A stretch of 30,420 nt of DNA from a virus, in the IMG/VR virus record IMGVR_UViG_3300022927_000082, positions 1 through 30,420 of that record; one strand, written 5' to 3'. Of this stretch, positions 13,280 to 30,420 are shown one piece after another. Numbering within the stretch: the first letter of the stretch is position 1; each line of letters opens with the position of its first letter. A program made the position numbers and the translations under genes. Below the pieces are notes generated by a model. It did not search any database. It was not told the DNA's origin and saw only the letters and a program-made list of their open reading frames with translations.

Positions 13280-14290
13280 ATGAATCTATTTAAAAAAGCG
13301 ATTTTCTTCACAGACATTCACTTTGGTCTAAAGTCCAACAGTAAGACGCACAATCAGGACTGTTTGGATTTTATTGACTTTGTTATTGAACAGGGCAAGG
13401 CCAACAACTGCGAAACCTGTGTGTTCTTGGGCGACTGGCACCACAATCGTGCCAGTCTAAACATCAGCACACTAAACTACAGTGTTCGTGCATTTGATAA
13501 GCTAAGTGATAGTTTTGCACAGGTGGTATTCCTTCCTGGCAATCATGATGAGCACTATCGTGATACACGAGAAATGAACAGTGTAGTGTGGGCTAAGAAG
13601 TGGGACAATGTTCGACTGTTTGATGACATCACAGAAGAAGGCGATGTCTGTGTTATGCCCTGGCTAGTGGGTAAAGAGTTTGCTCGAGTTCCTAAGATTG
13701 AAGCCAAGTATATGTTTGGTCATTTGGAACTGCCTAACTTCTACATGAACGCAATGGTGCGTATGCCTGACGTGGGTGAACTCAAGCGTGAAGACCTGCG
13801 TAGTGAAACCGTGTTTACTGGTCACTTCCACAAGCGACAGACGCACAAAAACATCACATACATTGGTAATGCGTTTCCTCATAACTATGCTGATGTAGGC
13901 GACGACGAGCGTGGCGTAATGATTTTAGAATGGGGCAAAGATCCGGAATATATTGCCTGGCCTGATGCTCCCAAGTACAGACGTTACATGCTAAGTGATA
14001 TTTTAGAAAACACAGACAAACTCCTAAAACCCAATATGTATTGTCGTGTTGAACTGGACATTGACATCAGCTACGAAGAAGCAAACTTTATCAAGGAGCA
14101 GTTTATCCCAGAGTTTAGTTTACGTGAACTTGCTCTTATACCTAGAGTTGGCGAAGAGGATCACGCACAAGAGTTTGAAGGCGAAGTCAACTTTGAAAGT
14201 GTGGACAGCATTGTAACGTCACACCTCACACAGTTGGATAGTCCACAGTATGACAAAACTCTTATGTTGGATATCTATCAAAATCTATAG
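13280..14290 (+). CDS. gp47: Recombination endonuclease subunit gp47 (SbcD/Mre11-like)
   Basis: 336 aa, as in T4 (339). Phosphoesterase metal ligands are visible in order: D12 and H14 (FFTDIHFG), D52 (FLGDWHHN), N88-H89 (FLPGNHDEHY), H148 (MFGHLE) and H182/H184 (FTGHFHKR). With gp46 it forms the SbcCD/Mre11-Rad50-type nuclease that resects DNA ends for recombination-dependent replication. It starts 2 nt after the gp55 stop without a clear SD, so coupling is likely. Normally gp46 follows directly; here 11 nt after the stop comes a broken copy of the gp46 start, then a homing endonuclease, then the intact gp46. Confidence 0.95.
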   Translation: MNLFKKAIFFTDIHFGLKSNSKTHNQDCLDFIDFVIEQGKANNCETCVFLGDWHHNRASLNISTLNYSVRAFDKLSDSFAQVVFLPGNHDEHYRDTREMNSVVWAKKWDNVRLFDDITEEGDVCVMPWLVGKEFARVPKIEAKYMFGHLELPNFYMNAMVRMPDVGELKREDLRSETVFTGHFHKRQTHKNITYIGNAFPHNYADVGDDERGVMILEWGKDPEYIAWPDAPKYRRYMLSDILENTDKLLKPNMYCRVELDIDISYEEANFIKEQFIPEFSLRELALIPRVGEEDHAQEFEGEVNFESVDSIVTSHLTQLDSPQYDKTLMLDIYQNL

Positions 14291-14301
14291 TATAATATAA
14301 T

Positions 14302-14403
14302 ATGTTTAAAATTAATACCCTTACAGTAAAGAACTTCATGAGCGTGGGTAACCAAACCCAGGCTATTGACTTTGACCGTAGAGACCTATTAGGAGGTGAT
14401 TAA
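14302..14403 (+). pseudogene. Remnant of the 5' end of gene 46
   Basis: A 33-codon frame starts at the place expected for gp46, 11 nt after gp47. Its first 29 residues (MFKINTLTVKNFMSVGNQTQ, then AIDFDRRDL) match the N-terminus of the intact gp46 at 15190 in 24 of 29 positions, but only 8 of 29 codons are identical. After that it reads LGGD and stops at TAA; the intact gene has about 11 further residues before its GGD, so the remnant also has an internal deletion or breakpoint. The longest identical block is 17 nt (14335-14351 against 15223-15239). A 14-nt palindrome TTAATATATATTAA (14400-14413) covers the stop. It has no Walker A motif and cannot encode a working ATPase. I read it as the original gene start displaced by a homing element. 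Confidence 0.85.
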
Positions 14404-14417
14404 TATATATTAAACGG

Positions 14418-15089
14418 TCATGCAAGTCTGCCCGGTTGAAATCCTTCTGGGCAGACTTTTCCTCTATAATTTATTTCTCCATTATTAAACCATTTTGTGC
14501 CTTTAATTGATTGACCATTATTTGGTCTTTTTTTGCCTTTGTTCCCTAACCCTATTTTAATTCTTGTCTCTAGAGACTTTGGACCAAGCCCCTTACCCTC
14601 GCGGCTATTACTAATTTTTTTCTTTGTCTCTATAGTCGGCGGTTTACGAGGAGATTTTTTATAACTGTCCTTCAATGAATCAGACCTTTTTTTGTTGGCC
14701 TCATCGGAATAAATTCCGGTTTTGCCTTTGTTCCACGGAACACGTTGACCAGATTCATACTGTCTTTTTTGTAAGTCACTTATTTTTTTCTTGGTTTTAT
14801 TTGTATGTTTTTTACCATACCCGCCGCCAGTTTCAGGAATCAAATTGGCCCACTGTGGATCTTCTACAATATTCCAGAGTTTACTGTAATATCTACCCCA
14901 ATGAGATAGTTCATCATGATCTTTACATTCCCTCAATATTTCAGTTGAAAAATCATAACCATGTGTATCTAGATGACTAAGCCAACGTTTTCCAGAACCT
15001 GTGTATTTTTGATAGTCCTTATTGGATGTTTTGCCTAGATACTTTACTCCAGTTTTGTTGTGAGTTTTAACGTACAAATAAATAGTCAT
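14418..15089 (-). CDS. GIY-YIG homing endonuclease with NUMOD3-type repeats
   Basis: 223 aa from ATG at 15089, preceded by GGGAG. A longer frame from 15227 would overlap the gp46 start in antisense and is less likely. The N-terminal nuclease shows the GIY-YIG pattern as YLY (4-6) ... YLG (17-19), followed by a likely catalytic Glu in HDELSHWGRYYSK. Then come several Lys-rich NUMOD3-like helices (..KHTNKTKKKISDLQKRQ.., ..PTIETKKKISNSREGKG.., ..KSLETRIKIGLGNKGKK..) and an end motif WFNNGEINYRG...CPEGFQPGR typical of phage homing enzymes; these bind DNA. It is free-standing, inverted relative to gp47/gp46, with its own TATAAATA late promoter. By position its target is gene 46. Family assignment is strong, target inferred. 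Confidence 0.88.
   Translation of the reverse strand: MTIYLYVKTHNKTGVKYLGKTSNKDYQKYTGSGKRWLSHLDTHGYDFSTEILRECKDHDELSHWGRYYSKLWNIVEDPQWANLIPETGGGYGKKHTNKTKKKISDLQKRQYESGQRVPWNKGKTGIYSDEANKKRSDSLKDSYKKSPRKPPTIETKKKISNSREGKGLGPKSLETRIKIGLGNKGKKRPNNGQSIKGTKWFNNGEINYRGKVCPEGFQPGRLA
14424..14458. repeat. Perfect 10-bp inverted repeat at the 3' end of the homing endonuclease gene
   Basis: AAGTCTGCCC (14424-14433) and GGGCAGACTT (14449-14458) flank a 15-nt loop. On the plus strand the stem is followed by TTTT-adjacent sequence, so it might weakly terminate transcripts arriving from gp47. On the minus strand it codes for the last residues of the endonuclease (CPEGFQPGRLA). Confidence 0.6.
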
Positions 15090-15114
15090 GCTGATGCTCC
15101 CGTTAAGCGTTAGA

Positions 15115-15143
15115 GTAGGTGGAAGTTCCAGTTCGCGACCTAC
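15115..15143. repeat. Hairpin in the leader of the homing endonuclease gene
   Basis: GTAGGT (15115-15120) pairs with ACCTAC (15138-15143), with a small palindrome TGGAAGTTCCA (15120-15130) just inside. The late transcript predicted from 15148-15155 would begin close to or inside the promoter-proximal arm, so readthrough and late transcripts may fold differently. Confidence 0.45.
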
Positions 15144-15147
15144 ATTA

Positions 15148-15155
15148 TATTTATA
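15148..15155 (-). promoter_or_regulatory. Late promoter of the homing endonuclease gene
   Basis: The minus strand reads TATAAATA, a perfect T4 late -10 element, 59 nt upstream of the endonuclease ATG. T4 homing endonucleases are often held to late expression in this way. Confidence 0.65.
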
Positions 15156-15189
15156 TTGATAGTTATTCAATTTTACAGTATTATAAAGT

Positions 15190-16947
15190 ATGTTCCAATT
15201 AAATACGTTAACCGTTAAAAATTTCATGAGCGTGGGTAATCAGACCCAAGCCGTAAACTTCAATAGACGTGATTTGACGCTCGTTCTTGGTGAAAACTTA
15301 GATCAAGGAGGTGATGATTCTGGCGCCAGAAATGGCACGGGTAAAACCACAATCATCAATGCACTGAGTTATGCTCTCTACGGTCAAGCTCTTACTAATA
15401 TCAAGCGTGACAACTTGATTAACAAGACCAACAGTAAAAATATGTTAGTTACTGTTGACTTTGAGCTAAACGGCGAACAGTATCATATTGAACGTGGGCG
15501 GAAGCCTAATGTATTAAAGTTTACAGTTGGAGAGATTGAGACAGAAGAACAGCAGGGTGAGAACCGTGAAACTCAGACTGAGATAGAACGCTTGTTGGGT
15601 ATGAGCCACGAGATGTTTAAACATCTTGTTGCTCTTAATACCTATACACAGCCGTTCCTTAGTTTGAGTGCTAATGATCAGCGCGCTATTATTGAGCAAA
15701 TGCTGGGCATCACATTACTAAGTGAAAAGGCAGAGAAACTAAAGGAACTAGGCAAGCAAACTAAGGATATGATTACTGAAGAAGAGTATCGTATCAAAGC
15801 AGTTGAGGATGCTAATAAACGCATTGCTGAACAGATTGACAGTCTTAAGAAACGTCAGCGACTCTGGCATGCAAAGCGTGATGAGGACGTAAAGAAACTA
15901 AAGTCTGGCATTGAGGATCTAGCACACATTGACATCGACAGTGAACTTGCTAATCATAAACTGTTAGAAGACTTTTACGTGCAAAAGAAACGGCGTGAAG
16001 AAGCAGAGCGTTGGATTAGTAGCATTGATAGTGACAATGACAAGCAGAATAAACTTATCGGTAAACTAGATAAAGAAATTAGTTTACTTGAAGAACACAA
16101 GTGTCATGCTTGTGGGCAGGATATTCATGATACTACGCAGGAAGAAATTCTAGCCAGCAAGCAGGAACAGAAGCAGGAAGCTGCAATGCAGATACTTGCT
16201 AACGAAACTCAACGTGCTGACCATATGGATGTATTGCAGGAAGGCGAACTTGGCGTTGCGCCGCAGGTGTTTTATGATACCATCGACGATGCTTACAACC
16301 ATCGTACTACAGTGGCTAGTTTGGAAAAGGAACTAACCAAACGTACAGAGGATGAAGATCCTTACGCAGAACAAATTGAAGAAATGGAAAGTCAGGGTAT
16401 CGAACAAGTAAGTTGGGACACTATCAATGAACTTGCTAAACTACGCGACCATCAGGACTTCTTACTCAAGCTACTTACCAACAAGGACAGTTTTATACGC
16501 AAACGTATTATAGATCAAAACCTACAGTTCTTAAACGCACGGCTAACATACTATCTTGGACGCATGGGCTTACCGCACACTGTTCGTTTTATGAACGATT
16601 TAGGCGTGGAAATACAGGAACTAGGCCGCGACTTGGACTTTGATAATCTCAGTAGAGGCGAACGAAATAGACTTATTTTAAGTCTAAGTTGGGCGTTCCG
16701 TGATGTATGGGAAAGCTTGTATCATCCTATCAATTTACTGTTTATTGACGAAGTTGTTGATAGTGGCATGGATGCTAGCGGTGTTGAAAGCGCACTAGCA
16801 GTCCTTAAGAAAATGAGCCGTGATCGTAACAAGAGTGTGTGGCTGGTTAGCCACAAGGACGAACTTGGTGGGCGTGTTAACAATATACTTAAAGTTGTTA
16901 AAGAGAATGGCTTTACAAGTTATGATACGGATGTAGAAGTTGTATAA
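15190..16947 (+). CDS. gp46: Recombination endonuclease subunit gp46 (SbcC/Rad50-like)
   Basis: 585 aa; T4 gp46 has 560. An ABC-type SMC ATPase: Walker A G45-ARNGTGKTT-54, long coiled-coil arms (about 175-300 and 315-430) around a zinc hook C305-HAC-308, signature LSRGERNR (487-494) and Walker B LLFIDE with D520/E521. It partners with gp47 in DNA-end resection. The ATG is preceded by TTATAAAGT and no SD. Its first 29 codons repeat, with different codon choice, the remnant at 14302, so the 5' end is probably foreign to this locus while the protein remains complete. Its stop overlaps the TTG start of the next gene by 8 nt. Confidence 0.94.
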   Translation: MFQLNTLTVKNFMSVGNQTQAVNFNRRDLTLVLGENLDQGGDDSGARNGTGKTTIINALSYALYGQALTNIKRDNLINKTNSKNMLVTVDFELNGEQYHIERGRKPNVLKFTVGEIETEEQQGENRETQTEIERLLGMSHEMFKHLVALNTYTQPFLSLSANDQRAIIEQMLGITLLSEKAEKLKELGKQTKDMITEEEYRIKAVEDANKRIAEQIDSLKKRQRLWHAKRDEDVKKLKSGIEDLAHIDIDSELANHKLLEDFYVQKKRREEAERWISSIDSDNDKQNKLIGKLDKEISLLEEHKCHACGQDIHDTTQEEILASKQEQKQEAAMQILANETQRADHMDVLQEGELGVAPQVFYDTIDDAYNHRTTVASLEKELTKRTEDEDPYAEQIEEMESQGIEQVSWDTINELAKLRDHQDFLLKLLTNKDSFIRKRIIDQNLQFLNARLTYYLGRMGLPHTVRFMNDLGVEIQELGRDLDFDNLSRGERNRLILSLSWAFRDVWESLYHPINLLFIDEVVDSGMDASGVESALAVLKKMSRDRNKSVWLVSHKDELGGRVNNILKVVKENGFTSYDTDVEVV

Positions 16948-17785
16948 GGTATTACATTTAGAATCAACAGATGTATGCCAGGCTGAGTGTCCGCTATGCA
17001 GTAGATCAACCAATCCTGCATTTACTGACTCGCATAGCCATCTATCAATAGAACAAATACAAGCGAAGTTTGGTACTGATATTATAAAGAGTTTGGATAA
17101 GATGTTTATGTGTGGTAACTACGGTGATCCAGCCGCTGGGCGCAACACATTGGAAATCTACAGATATTTTAGAAGTATCAACCACAACATCACACTAGGC
17201 ATGAATACTAACGGTGCTTTGCAGTCAGTTGAGTGGTGGAAGCAACTTGCTAAGATTTTTATGCTTCCTGCAGACTATGTGGTTTTTAGTATAGACGGAT
17301 TAGAAGATACAAATCACATCTATAGACGTAATGTTATCTGGAATAAGTTAATTGATAATTGTACAAGTTATATAAACGCTGGTGGAAATGCTCACTGGGA
17401 TATGCTAGTGTACAAACACAATCAGCACCAGGTTGATGAATGCATGGAATTAGCAAAAACGCTGGGATTTAAATGGTTTAGAGCAAAAGTTAGCAAACGA
17501 GCTTTTATAGATGGTTTAGAATTTCCCGTAGGTTATGAAAGCCCACGAATAGAACAGGGCAATATTAACTGTATGGCTTTGCAAGAATCCAGCGTGTATA
17601 TAAGTGCGACTGGAGATGTACATCCTTGCTGTTGGTTAGGCAATGATCTAAATAACACATTAAAAATGGCAGATGTGCAGGCAACATGGAATACTGATAC
17701 ACCCCATCCAACTTGCAAAAGAACATGTAGCACAATGCAAAATAGTTTTAAAAATCAATGGCAATGTGAGGTAGAATTGTGTTAG
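16940..17785 (+). CDS. Radical SAM enzyme with C-terminal Cys-rich (SPASM/twitch-like) domain, copy 1
   Basis: 281 aa from a TTG at 16940 overlapping the end of gp46; there is no better start, because the Fe-S motif begins at residue 13. C13-x3-C17-x2-C20 (VCQAECPLCS) is the [4Fe-4S] cluster motif of radical SAM enzymes. FMCGNYGDP (about 56-64) and FSIDGLEDTN (about 114-123) fit the following strands of the barrel. The C-terminus has further cysteines at 211, 230-231 (HPCCWLG), 259, 263, 276 and 281, as in SPASM/twitch domains that bind extra clusters and act on peptides or proteins. The substrate is unknown. It overlaps the next, related gene by 7 nt, so the pair should be made together. Not part of the T4 core. 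Confidence 0.82.
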   Translation: MYKVLHLESTDVCQAECPLCSRSTNPAFTDSHSHLSIEQIQAKFGTDIIKSLDKMFMCGNYGDPAAGRNTLEIYRYFRSINHNITLGMNTNGALQSVEWWKQLAKIFMLPADYVVFSIDGLEDTNHIYRRNVIWNKLIDNCTSYINAGGNAHWDMLVYKHNQHQVDECMELAKTLGFKWFRAKVSKRAFIDGLEFPVGYESPRIEQGNINCMALQESSVYISATGDVHPCCWLGNDLNNTLKMADVQATWNTDTPHPTCKRTCSTMQNSFKNQWQCEVELC

Positions 17786-18806: not shown

Positions 18807-19241
18807 ATGACATGGCTATACAATGATGAACCAGTTGAGGAAATACCCGAAGGTGTAGTAGGGTTTGTTTACTTGATTACAAATACTACTAATGGCAAAA
18901 AATACATAGGCAAAAAACTAGCTCAATTTAGGCGCACAAGGCCACCTCTCAAAGGCAGAAAAAATAAACGACGTTCAACAGTAGAATCAGACTGGCGCGA
19001 TTATTACGGCTCATCAGACAATTTAACGGCAGACATAGAACTACTAGGCAAAGAAAACTTCAAACGTGAAATACTCTTCTATTGTTACAGCAAGGGAGAG
19101 TGTAGTTACATTGAAGCAAGAGAACAGTTCAGGCACCGTGTACTAGAATCTGACGAATGGTACAATGGACATATCAGAGTCCGTGTACACAAGAGTCAAA
19201 AAGTCATCTCAGAATCAAACAAAAACTATGGCAAAAATTGA
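18807..19241 (+). CDS. GIY-YIG family nuclease-like protein
   Basis: 144 aa. FVY (20-22) ... YIG (33-35) in GFVYLITNTTNGKKYIGKK is the GIY-YIG signature; ESDWRDYYGSS (60-70) and a probable catalytic Glu E103 (YIEAREQF) complete the fold. There are no NUMOD repeats, so it is a minimal nuclease unlike the enzyme at 14418. Proteins of this form, with a basic segment RKNKRRS, are to my knowledge a recurrent conserved gene of marine T4-like phages rather than a recent insertion; role unknown (homing, repair or host DNA attack). A TATAAT at 18797-18802 lies only 4 nt before the ATG and there is no SD. It follows the second radical SAM gene by 20 nt. Confidence 0.75.
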   Translation: MTWLYNDEPVEEIPEGVVGFVYLITNTTNGKKYIGKKLAQFRRTRPPLKGRKNKRRSTVESDWRDYYGSSDNLTADIELLGKENFKREILFYCYSKGECSYIEAREQFRHRVLESDEWYNGHIRVRVHKSQKVISESNKNYGKN

Positions 19242-29879: not shown

Positions 29880-29931
29880 AGTCTATAAACTAGACTTATG
29901 CGGACACCACCGCGTACTTGGTAGAACCAAG
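29880..29931 (+). other. Three hairpins in the 5' leader of the last gene
   Basis: AGTCTA/TAGACT (29880-29885, 29891-29896), GCGG/CCGC (29900-29903, 29910-29913) and CTTGGT/ACCAAG (29917-29922, 29926-29931) follow each other between the late promoter and the SD. They would make a compact structured leader. A further 7-bp repeat GTTGACT/AGTCAAC (29807-29813, 29825-29831) lies before the promoter. Confidence 0.6.
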
Positions 29932-29958
29932 ATTGGACTTCTTGAAAGGAGAAAACAA

Positions 29959-30420
29959 ATGGGTAGACCACTAAGAAGAAGAGAAGACGTTGTAGCAAAC
30001 GTTAATGGATCTTCAACAACAATCAATAAAACTGGTGTAGTAGGAACTGATTCACTATCAGGCGAGCAGATCCGTATGAACGCTTATATTCCAACAGCAG
30101 ACGGCGGTTCCAGCGCAGTAGCAACAAGCGCAATCCTACAAAAAGGAACCAAGCGTTTCCGTTGTACAACAGCACAAGGCACAGGCACATGCACACTTCG
30201 TCCACTAGCCAGTGGCTCACTGGCTGCAGGCGAGTGCCAGCTAACAGCAACAGACAGTGCTGGCGGTACTTATTATGTAAGCCGCATTAGTCCTACATGG
30301 ATTGAGATTGGTGCTCTGGGCACAGGTTCACAGGTAGCAGTTGGTGATCGTGTACAGTGGGTAGATGATCAAACTAGTGCAGTTGCTATTAACACAGGAA
30401 CATGGGCTATTGGTGATGTA
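29959..30420 (+). CDS. Putative virion protein, C-terminus beyond the window
   Basis: 154 codons from ATG at 29959 run open to the right edge. The SD AAAGGAGA is strong. The protein begins MGRPLRRREDVVANVNGSST and continues with beta-rich sequence (ILQKGTKRFRCTTAQGTGTC, LRPLASGSLAAGECQLTATD). A basic MGRP start followed by a KGTKRF..G.C.L segment is one I recall from small structural proteins of marine myoviruses, so a capsid or tail decoration role is possible. An in-frame ATG at 29836 is rejected because it lies upstream of the late promoter. Codon choice resembles gp23, suggesting high expression. Function is not known. Confidence 0.65.
   Translation, partial: MGRPLRRREDVVANVNGSSTTINKTGVVGTDSLSGEQIRMNAYIPTADGGSSAVATSAILQKGTKRFRCTTAQGTGTCTLRPLASGSLAAGECQLTATDSAGGTYYVSRISPTWIEIGALGTGSQVAVGDRVQWVDDQTSAVAINTGTWAIGDV

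Follow-up and report, generated by a model that had tools for sequence, protein, structure and literature searches.

The interrupted gene 46 locus

The stretch of DNA analyzed here, referred to as the window, comprises the 30,420 bases of a virus record (IMG/VR IMGVR_UViG_3300022927_000082) that represents a genome fragment. Its T4-type genes include those for SbcC/D-like gp46/47, a late sigma factor, portal, head protease and major head protein. The earlier note on this DNA described gp47 followed by a gene 46 remnant, an inverted endonuclease gene and a complete gp46, and this order was confirmed by the open reading frame (ORF) coordinates. The features are listed below; L001 and L002, contigs of two other metagenome datasets, are relatives with an empty site, and L086 is a second carrier of the block.

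13280–14290, + strand: gp47, intact SbcD-like nuclease subunit (phrog_100, E 5.8e-64; Pfam Metallophos)
14268–14296, + strand: native gene 46 promoter-like site, TGGATA-17-TATAAT, from a consensus scan only; now precedes the remnant
14302–14403, + strand: remnant ORF of 33 codons (ORF list)
14302–14388, + strand: native gene 46 codons 1–29, the severed remnant; matches the gene 46 5′ end of L001/L002 up to 14388
14389–14403, + strand: left end of the cassette, TTA GGA GGT GAT TAA, its last codon a stop; same junction in L086
14418–15227, − strand: inverted endonuclease ORF, long form (ORF list)
14418–15089, − strand: free-standing homing endonuclease, 223 aa (NUMOD3 PF07460; phrog_314, E 9e-11)
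14424–14458, + strand: strong hairpin, then TTTTCC (−21.8 kcal/mol, z −4.8)
about 14811–15089, − strand: GIY-YIG domain, residues 1–93 (AlphaFold2 match to the I-TevI catalytic domain)
15156–15184, + strand: cassette promoter-like site, TTGATA-17-TATTAT (consensus scan)
15190–16947, + strand: complete gp46 (ORF list)
15190–15285, + strand: foreign (recoded) replacement for gene 46 codons 1–32; 31/96 nt differ from the empty allele
15244–15378, + strand: homogenised segment, codons 19–63, with a peak of synonymous-codon identity in the clade that is absent outside it
15286–16947, + strand: resident gene 46 body, SbcC-like ATPase (phrog_77, E 4e-101); no differences from L002

The native part of the remnant stops at codon 29, and the last four codons of its ORF (TTA GGA GGT GAT) belong to the element. 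The recoding of the second copy extends to 15285, the end of codon 32, and there the foreign start runs in frame into the resident body; the joined gene encodes a complete gp46. Over 29 codons the remnant and the complete gp46 share 24 amino acids but only eight identical codons, with 16 synonymous differences, which reproduces the earlier count exactly; five differences are nonsynonymous and 59/87 nt are identical. Compared with the empty allele, the differences in the recoded segment stand against none in the rest of gene 46 and none in more than 3.2 kb upstream, a divergence far beyond chance. They are denser near the junction (18/37 nt in positions 60–96 versus 13/59, Fisher p 0.013), a pattern compatible with, and no proof of, protection of a putative cut site. 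Tandem duplication was rejected: the two copies differ by 32%, yet the flanks match the empty allele. The proposal that the two gene 46 starts come from diverged lineages rather than from a recent duplication is supported.

ATG 15089 is the most likely start of the endonuclease, since homology to other GIY-YIG enzymes sets in at this codon; in the long form it is preceded by 46 residues whose coding sequence is antisense to the gene 46 start and the DNA in front of that start. The match to the phrog_314 homing endonuclease family was obtained with the longer ORF. In the Pfam search NUMOD3 scored above cut-off and the PF01541 profile had no match. The AlphaFold2 model of the N-terminal domain, with pLDDT mostly above 80 there and low confidence in the remainder, superimposes on the I-TevI catalytic domain (Z 9.0, rmsd 2.5 Å, 85 residues), which is its closest solved structure, and the enzyme is accordingly predicted to have the GIY-YIG catalytic fold. 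In an alignment of these enzymes Y6, Y17, G19 and N82 are invariant and E50 is nearly so; the initial G of GIY is not retained. R34, in KRW..H read against I-TevI, is presumably the catalytic arginine. Close relatives of the endonuclease were not found among viral contigs, phages and bacterial genomes, where matches were only 27–51% identical over parts, and none of these was shown beside a duplicated gene 46 start.

At the left end of the block, TTA GGA GGT GAT reads LGGD, the family consensus at gene 46 codons 39–42. This may perhaps be a relic of an older insertion or of how the cassette first formed, though the same letters also look like a Shine-Dalgarno sequence. Read on the opposite strand, the hairpin DNA codes for the C-terminal end of the endonuclease; the 29-nt hairpin core is identical in L086, and the hairpin could be a terminator for transcription of the dead remnant. 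The cassette and native promoter-like sites, from a scan that found 4 sites versus 3.3 expected, lie at equal distances from their start codons. The 38 nt upstream of the foreign start are identical to the native upstream sequence at 23/38 positions (shuffle p 0.002). A CNNNG motif of the I-TevI type at the right border (CTTGG) was discounted, as such motifs are too common to count.

Empty sites, a second carrier and phylogenetic conflict

Comparison of the junction with insert-free relatives, as suggested in the earlier note, gave a difference that is exactly the unit it had proposed. L002 matches the window without a mismatch over more than 3.2 kb upstream and on to 14388, and its gp47 is 100% identical. 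An 897-bp block (14389–15285) then replaces 9 bp of L002 (ACTCTTGTG, codons 30–32), after which there is again no mismatch from 15286 to 17764, past the end of gene 46. L001 carries the same native gene 46 start as L002, and clade members without the element, among them the close relative L195, likewise have a native start of the K type. Since relatives lacking the element keep this start, the empty site is, judged from these sequences, the ancestral state. Occupied alleles (window, L086) and empty alleles (L001, L002, L195 and others) thus coexist in related phages.

A search with a degenerate pattern of the foreign start (MFQLNTLTVKNFM) turned up L086 together with L085. The left junction of L086, GACCTA joined to TTAGGAGGTGATTA, is identical to that of the window, and its remnant piece (codons about 21–29) comes from a different native allele. 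The contig keeps 15 identical C-terminal endonuclease codons, including the hairpin; the endonuclease body is then deleted, and beyond the deletion lie the upstream part of the element and a foreign MFQLN-type start fused to the resident gene 46 body. The earlier note had held that relatives with both copies and no endonuclease would speak against its proposal. L086 is formally such a relative, but because both ends of the endonuclease segment are kept it is a deletion derivative and not an ancestor; it appears to show a state in which the enzyme decayed and the new gene 46 start was retained. The common left junction may mean that the two carriers stem from one original event rather than from repeated site-specific insertion. 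Gene 46 of L086 (158–1912) is a mosaic relative to that of the window, with blocks of 97–100% identity beside blocks of 68–80%.

L085 (a 108-kb contig) has the same foreign start right behind native-type upstream sequence and contains no endonuclease, and could be either a donor-type or a cured allele. L085 ends, and L173 from a different dataset starts, at gene 46 codon about 32, where the element has its right border, a hint that the two samples contain a mixture of alleles. In a set of more than 100 relatives that have gene 46, a second start of this gene was found only at endonuclease-associated loci, in the window and L086. These are the two carriers in all, with a single copy of the full-length endonuclease, and pattern searches with the left end and the hairpin returned only L086 beyond unrelated matches. 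A donor with the exact recoded sequence was not found; the nearest starts differ at 17/87 nt. L084, the sole match to the exact 30-nt recoded pattern, was rejected as donor, as its gene 46 is distant (about 53% aa) and the match was judged to be a coincidence of codons.

Separate trees of the gene start and the gene body revealed the conflict that the earlier note had anticipated. The tree built on the first 87 nt places the recoded copy with L085, L086 and L067 (support 98/93); over this length the remnant does not differ from L002. This tree is small, and its remaining forks are weakly supported. For the gene 46 body, the window and L002 have the same sequence and form a group with L195 and L086 (99/100).

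We also compared codon identity at synonymous positions among seven element-free clade members. Identity is about 45–55% along most of gene 46 and climbs to 65–86% over codons 19–63, straddling the insertion site. Codons 33–68 are at 78% versus 52% for all codons after 32 (0/10,000 permutations, a result that is descriptive only because per-site permutation ignores relatedness), and outside the clade they are at 40% versus 46%. The simplest reading would be a clade-limited conversion hotspot, and the peak is as might be expected from repeated gene conversion around a putative break site, although it lies about 20 codons to the right of the insertion point, which counts against that reading. 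The tract could also reflect general phage recombination or, alternatively, a clade-specific constraint on the DNA.

Origin of the block and comparison with known systems

The block consists of an inverted GIY-YIG/NUMOD3 endonuclease gene, a promoter-like site and foreign codons 1–32, all inside gene 46, and native codons 1–29 are left behind as a dead fragment. The element brings along a foreign copy of the gene piece that it cuts off, and gene 46 therefore still reads through. We consider it probable that this is an invasive homing-endonuclease cassette that rebuilds the severed 5′ end of gene 46. We infer that the enzyme would cut unoccupied gene 46 at or beside codons 29–32. The left broken end would pair with the remnant in an occupied donor phage and the right end with the gene body, and two-sided repair would copy the whole cassette. 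The cassette would supply a promoter-like site, a start codon and codons 1–32 without a match to the cleavage site, so that donor-lineage codons would keep gp46 functional and the recoding would abolish cutting, leaving an immune product. The endonuclease could later decay, as in L086, or be lost, leaving the swapped gene start alone, possibly as in L085.

Other origins were weighed against this one. Ordinary recombination between co-infecting phages could have joined a diverged gene 46 start and adjacent DNA to the resident gene, with the endonuclease as a non-causal passenger. These phages do recombine freely, as the mosaic gene 46 of L086 and the window indicates, and the 47–46 interval is a hotspot for cargo without endonucleases; we nevertheless regard this origin as unlikely, given that ordinary homologous exchange leaves no truncated copy, that the element borders are common to both carriers and that second starts are confined to endonuclease-associated loci. 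The possibility that the window is an assembly chimera of two co-occurring strains gains something from the L085 and L173 ends at about codon 32, a site that evidently confuses assemblers. It is extremely improbable, as the left junction offers no homology that an assembler could misuse and recurs with the same block in the independent contig L086, by which we therefore take an assembly artefact to be excluded.

A one-sided event is a variant of the cassette explanation. Here a diverged donor would have carried the enzyme gene in its 47–46 interval, in the manner of T4 seg genes, and the enzyme would have cut the recipient gene 46; the right end would have been repaired by homology through the donor start and enzyme gene, and the left end joined illegitimately, leaving the remnant. 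Free-standing T4 enzymes do lie between genes and cut the neighbouring gene (PMC2988022), and the sequence before the foreign start resembles the native 47–46 junction, as described above. We nonetheless judge this route very unlikely for the window: in L086 this left junction adjoins another remnant allele, for which two-sided homing of a formed cassette is the simpler explanation, and a donor whose enzyme gene separates intact genes 47 and 46 did not turn up. It may be how the cassette first formed.

The closest parallel to the cassette is the gene-end replacement by mobile ORFs (mORFs) of fungal mitochondria, in Allomyces atp6 and in atp6, atp9, cox2 and nad3 of Glomus sp. (PMC3630166). As there, a free-standing endonuclease ORF is accompanied by a foreign copy of the severed gene end and a native remnant, the hybrid gene is in frame, inserted and native gene ends conflict phylogenetically, and the gene-end copies are similar in protein and far apart in DNA; the native and foreign ends of Glomus atp6 are 91% alike in amino acids and 63.5% in nucleotides, and one fungal case also has a GIY-YIG enzyme (PMC3630166). 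Unlike the fungal elements, which replace the 3′ end, the element in the window replaces the 5′ end and must therefore also supply a start codon and promoter. It further differs in its tailed-phage host, its inverted enzyme gene and its flank-identical empty-site twin. Transcription of the hybrid gene beside a silent remnant also characterises the fungal type.

The locus also resembles intronless homing in T-even phages (SegA, SegE, SegF, SegG; PMC2988022), in that a free-standing phage GIY-YIG enzyme lies beside its presumed target gene, an adjacent diverged allele would be inherited with the enzyme gene, and related phages have occupied and empty alleles. The T4 enzymes, however, are encoded between intact genes and have cut sites at a distance of hundreds of bp or more, and the flanks are co-converted (PMC2988022), whereas the block in the window interrupts gene 46 itself, from codon 29 to codon 33; a truncated remnant stays behind, and the adjoining flanks show no co-conversion. 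With group I introns (td/I-TevI) it shares insertion inside a coding gene at a presumed cleavage site. There is no splicing, unlike in those introns: no group I intron was detected in the window by Rfam at the gathering threshold, and gene 46 is complete without splicing, repaired by the replacement segment. The locus in the window combines features of the fungal and T-even types, a phage enzyme inside a gene with 5′-end replacement.

In the open-access literature we found no phage precedent for gene-end replacement by an endonuclease, and our best reading of the locus is as a phage counterpart of the fungal mORF systems. With some reserve, we lean towards a class of homing elements in bacterial viruses that replace the 5′ end of the essential gene they cut, bring their own promoter, start codon and cut-resistant codons, and drive continual turnover of gene ends. 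The stages of such turnover would be invasion (window), endonuclease loss (L086), a cured swapped start (L085) and homogenised flanks in element-free relatives. If this holds, gene-end replacement known from fungal mitochondria would also exist in phages, and a selfish endonuclease could therefore insert within an essential gene with no need of an intron or intein; recoded gene starts would have a route by which to spread between phages. The natural pair of empty and occupied alleles is available for direct study of cutting, immunity and inheritance.

Other features around the junction

The 47–46 interval of relatives is a hotspot for co-directional accessory genes and is 0 to 3.8 kb long. Its cargo includes radical SAM, sulfotransferase-like, SDR-like and other types (for example L085 5939–7574, L195 750–1757 on the reverse complement, L055 and L057). 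These intervals lack a second gene 46 start, and as co-directional accessory genes they were rejected as instances of the same phenomenon. Downstream of gene 46, the window has a small conserved GIY-YIG gene (18807–19241, + strand), and many relatives carry related genes downstream of their own gene 46; the families are phrog_447, whose label is 'NAD synthetase', and several of homing endonucleases. Further along the window, an Rfam freshwater-2 RNA (RF02980, 73.5 bits) was identified at 29880–29961 (+ strand), between the major head protein gene and an ORF with its ATG near 29959.
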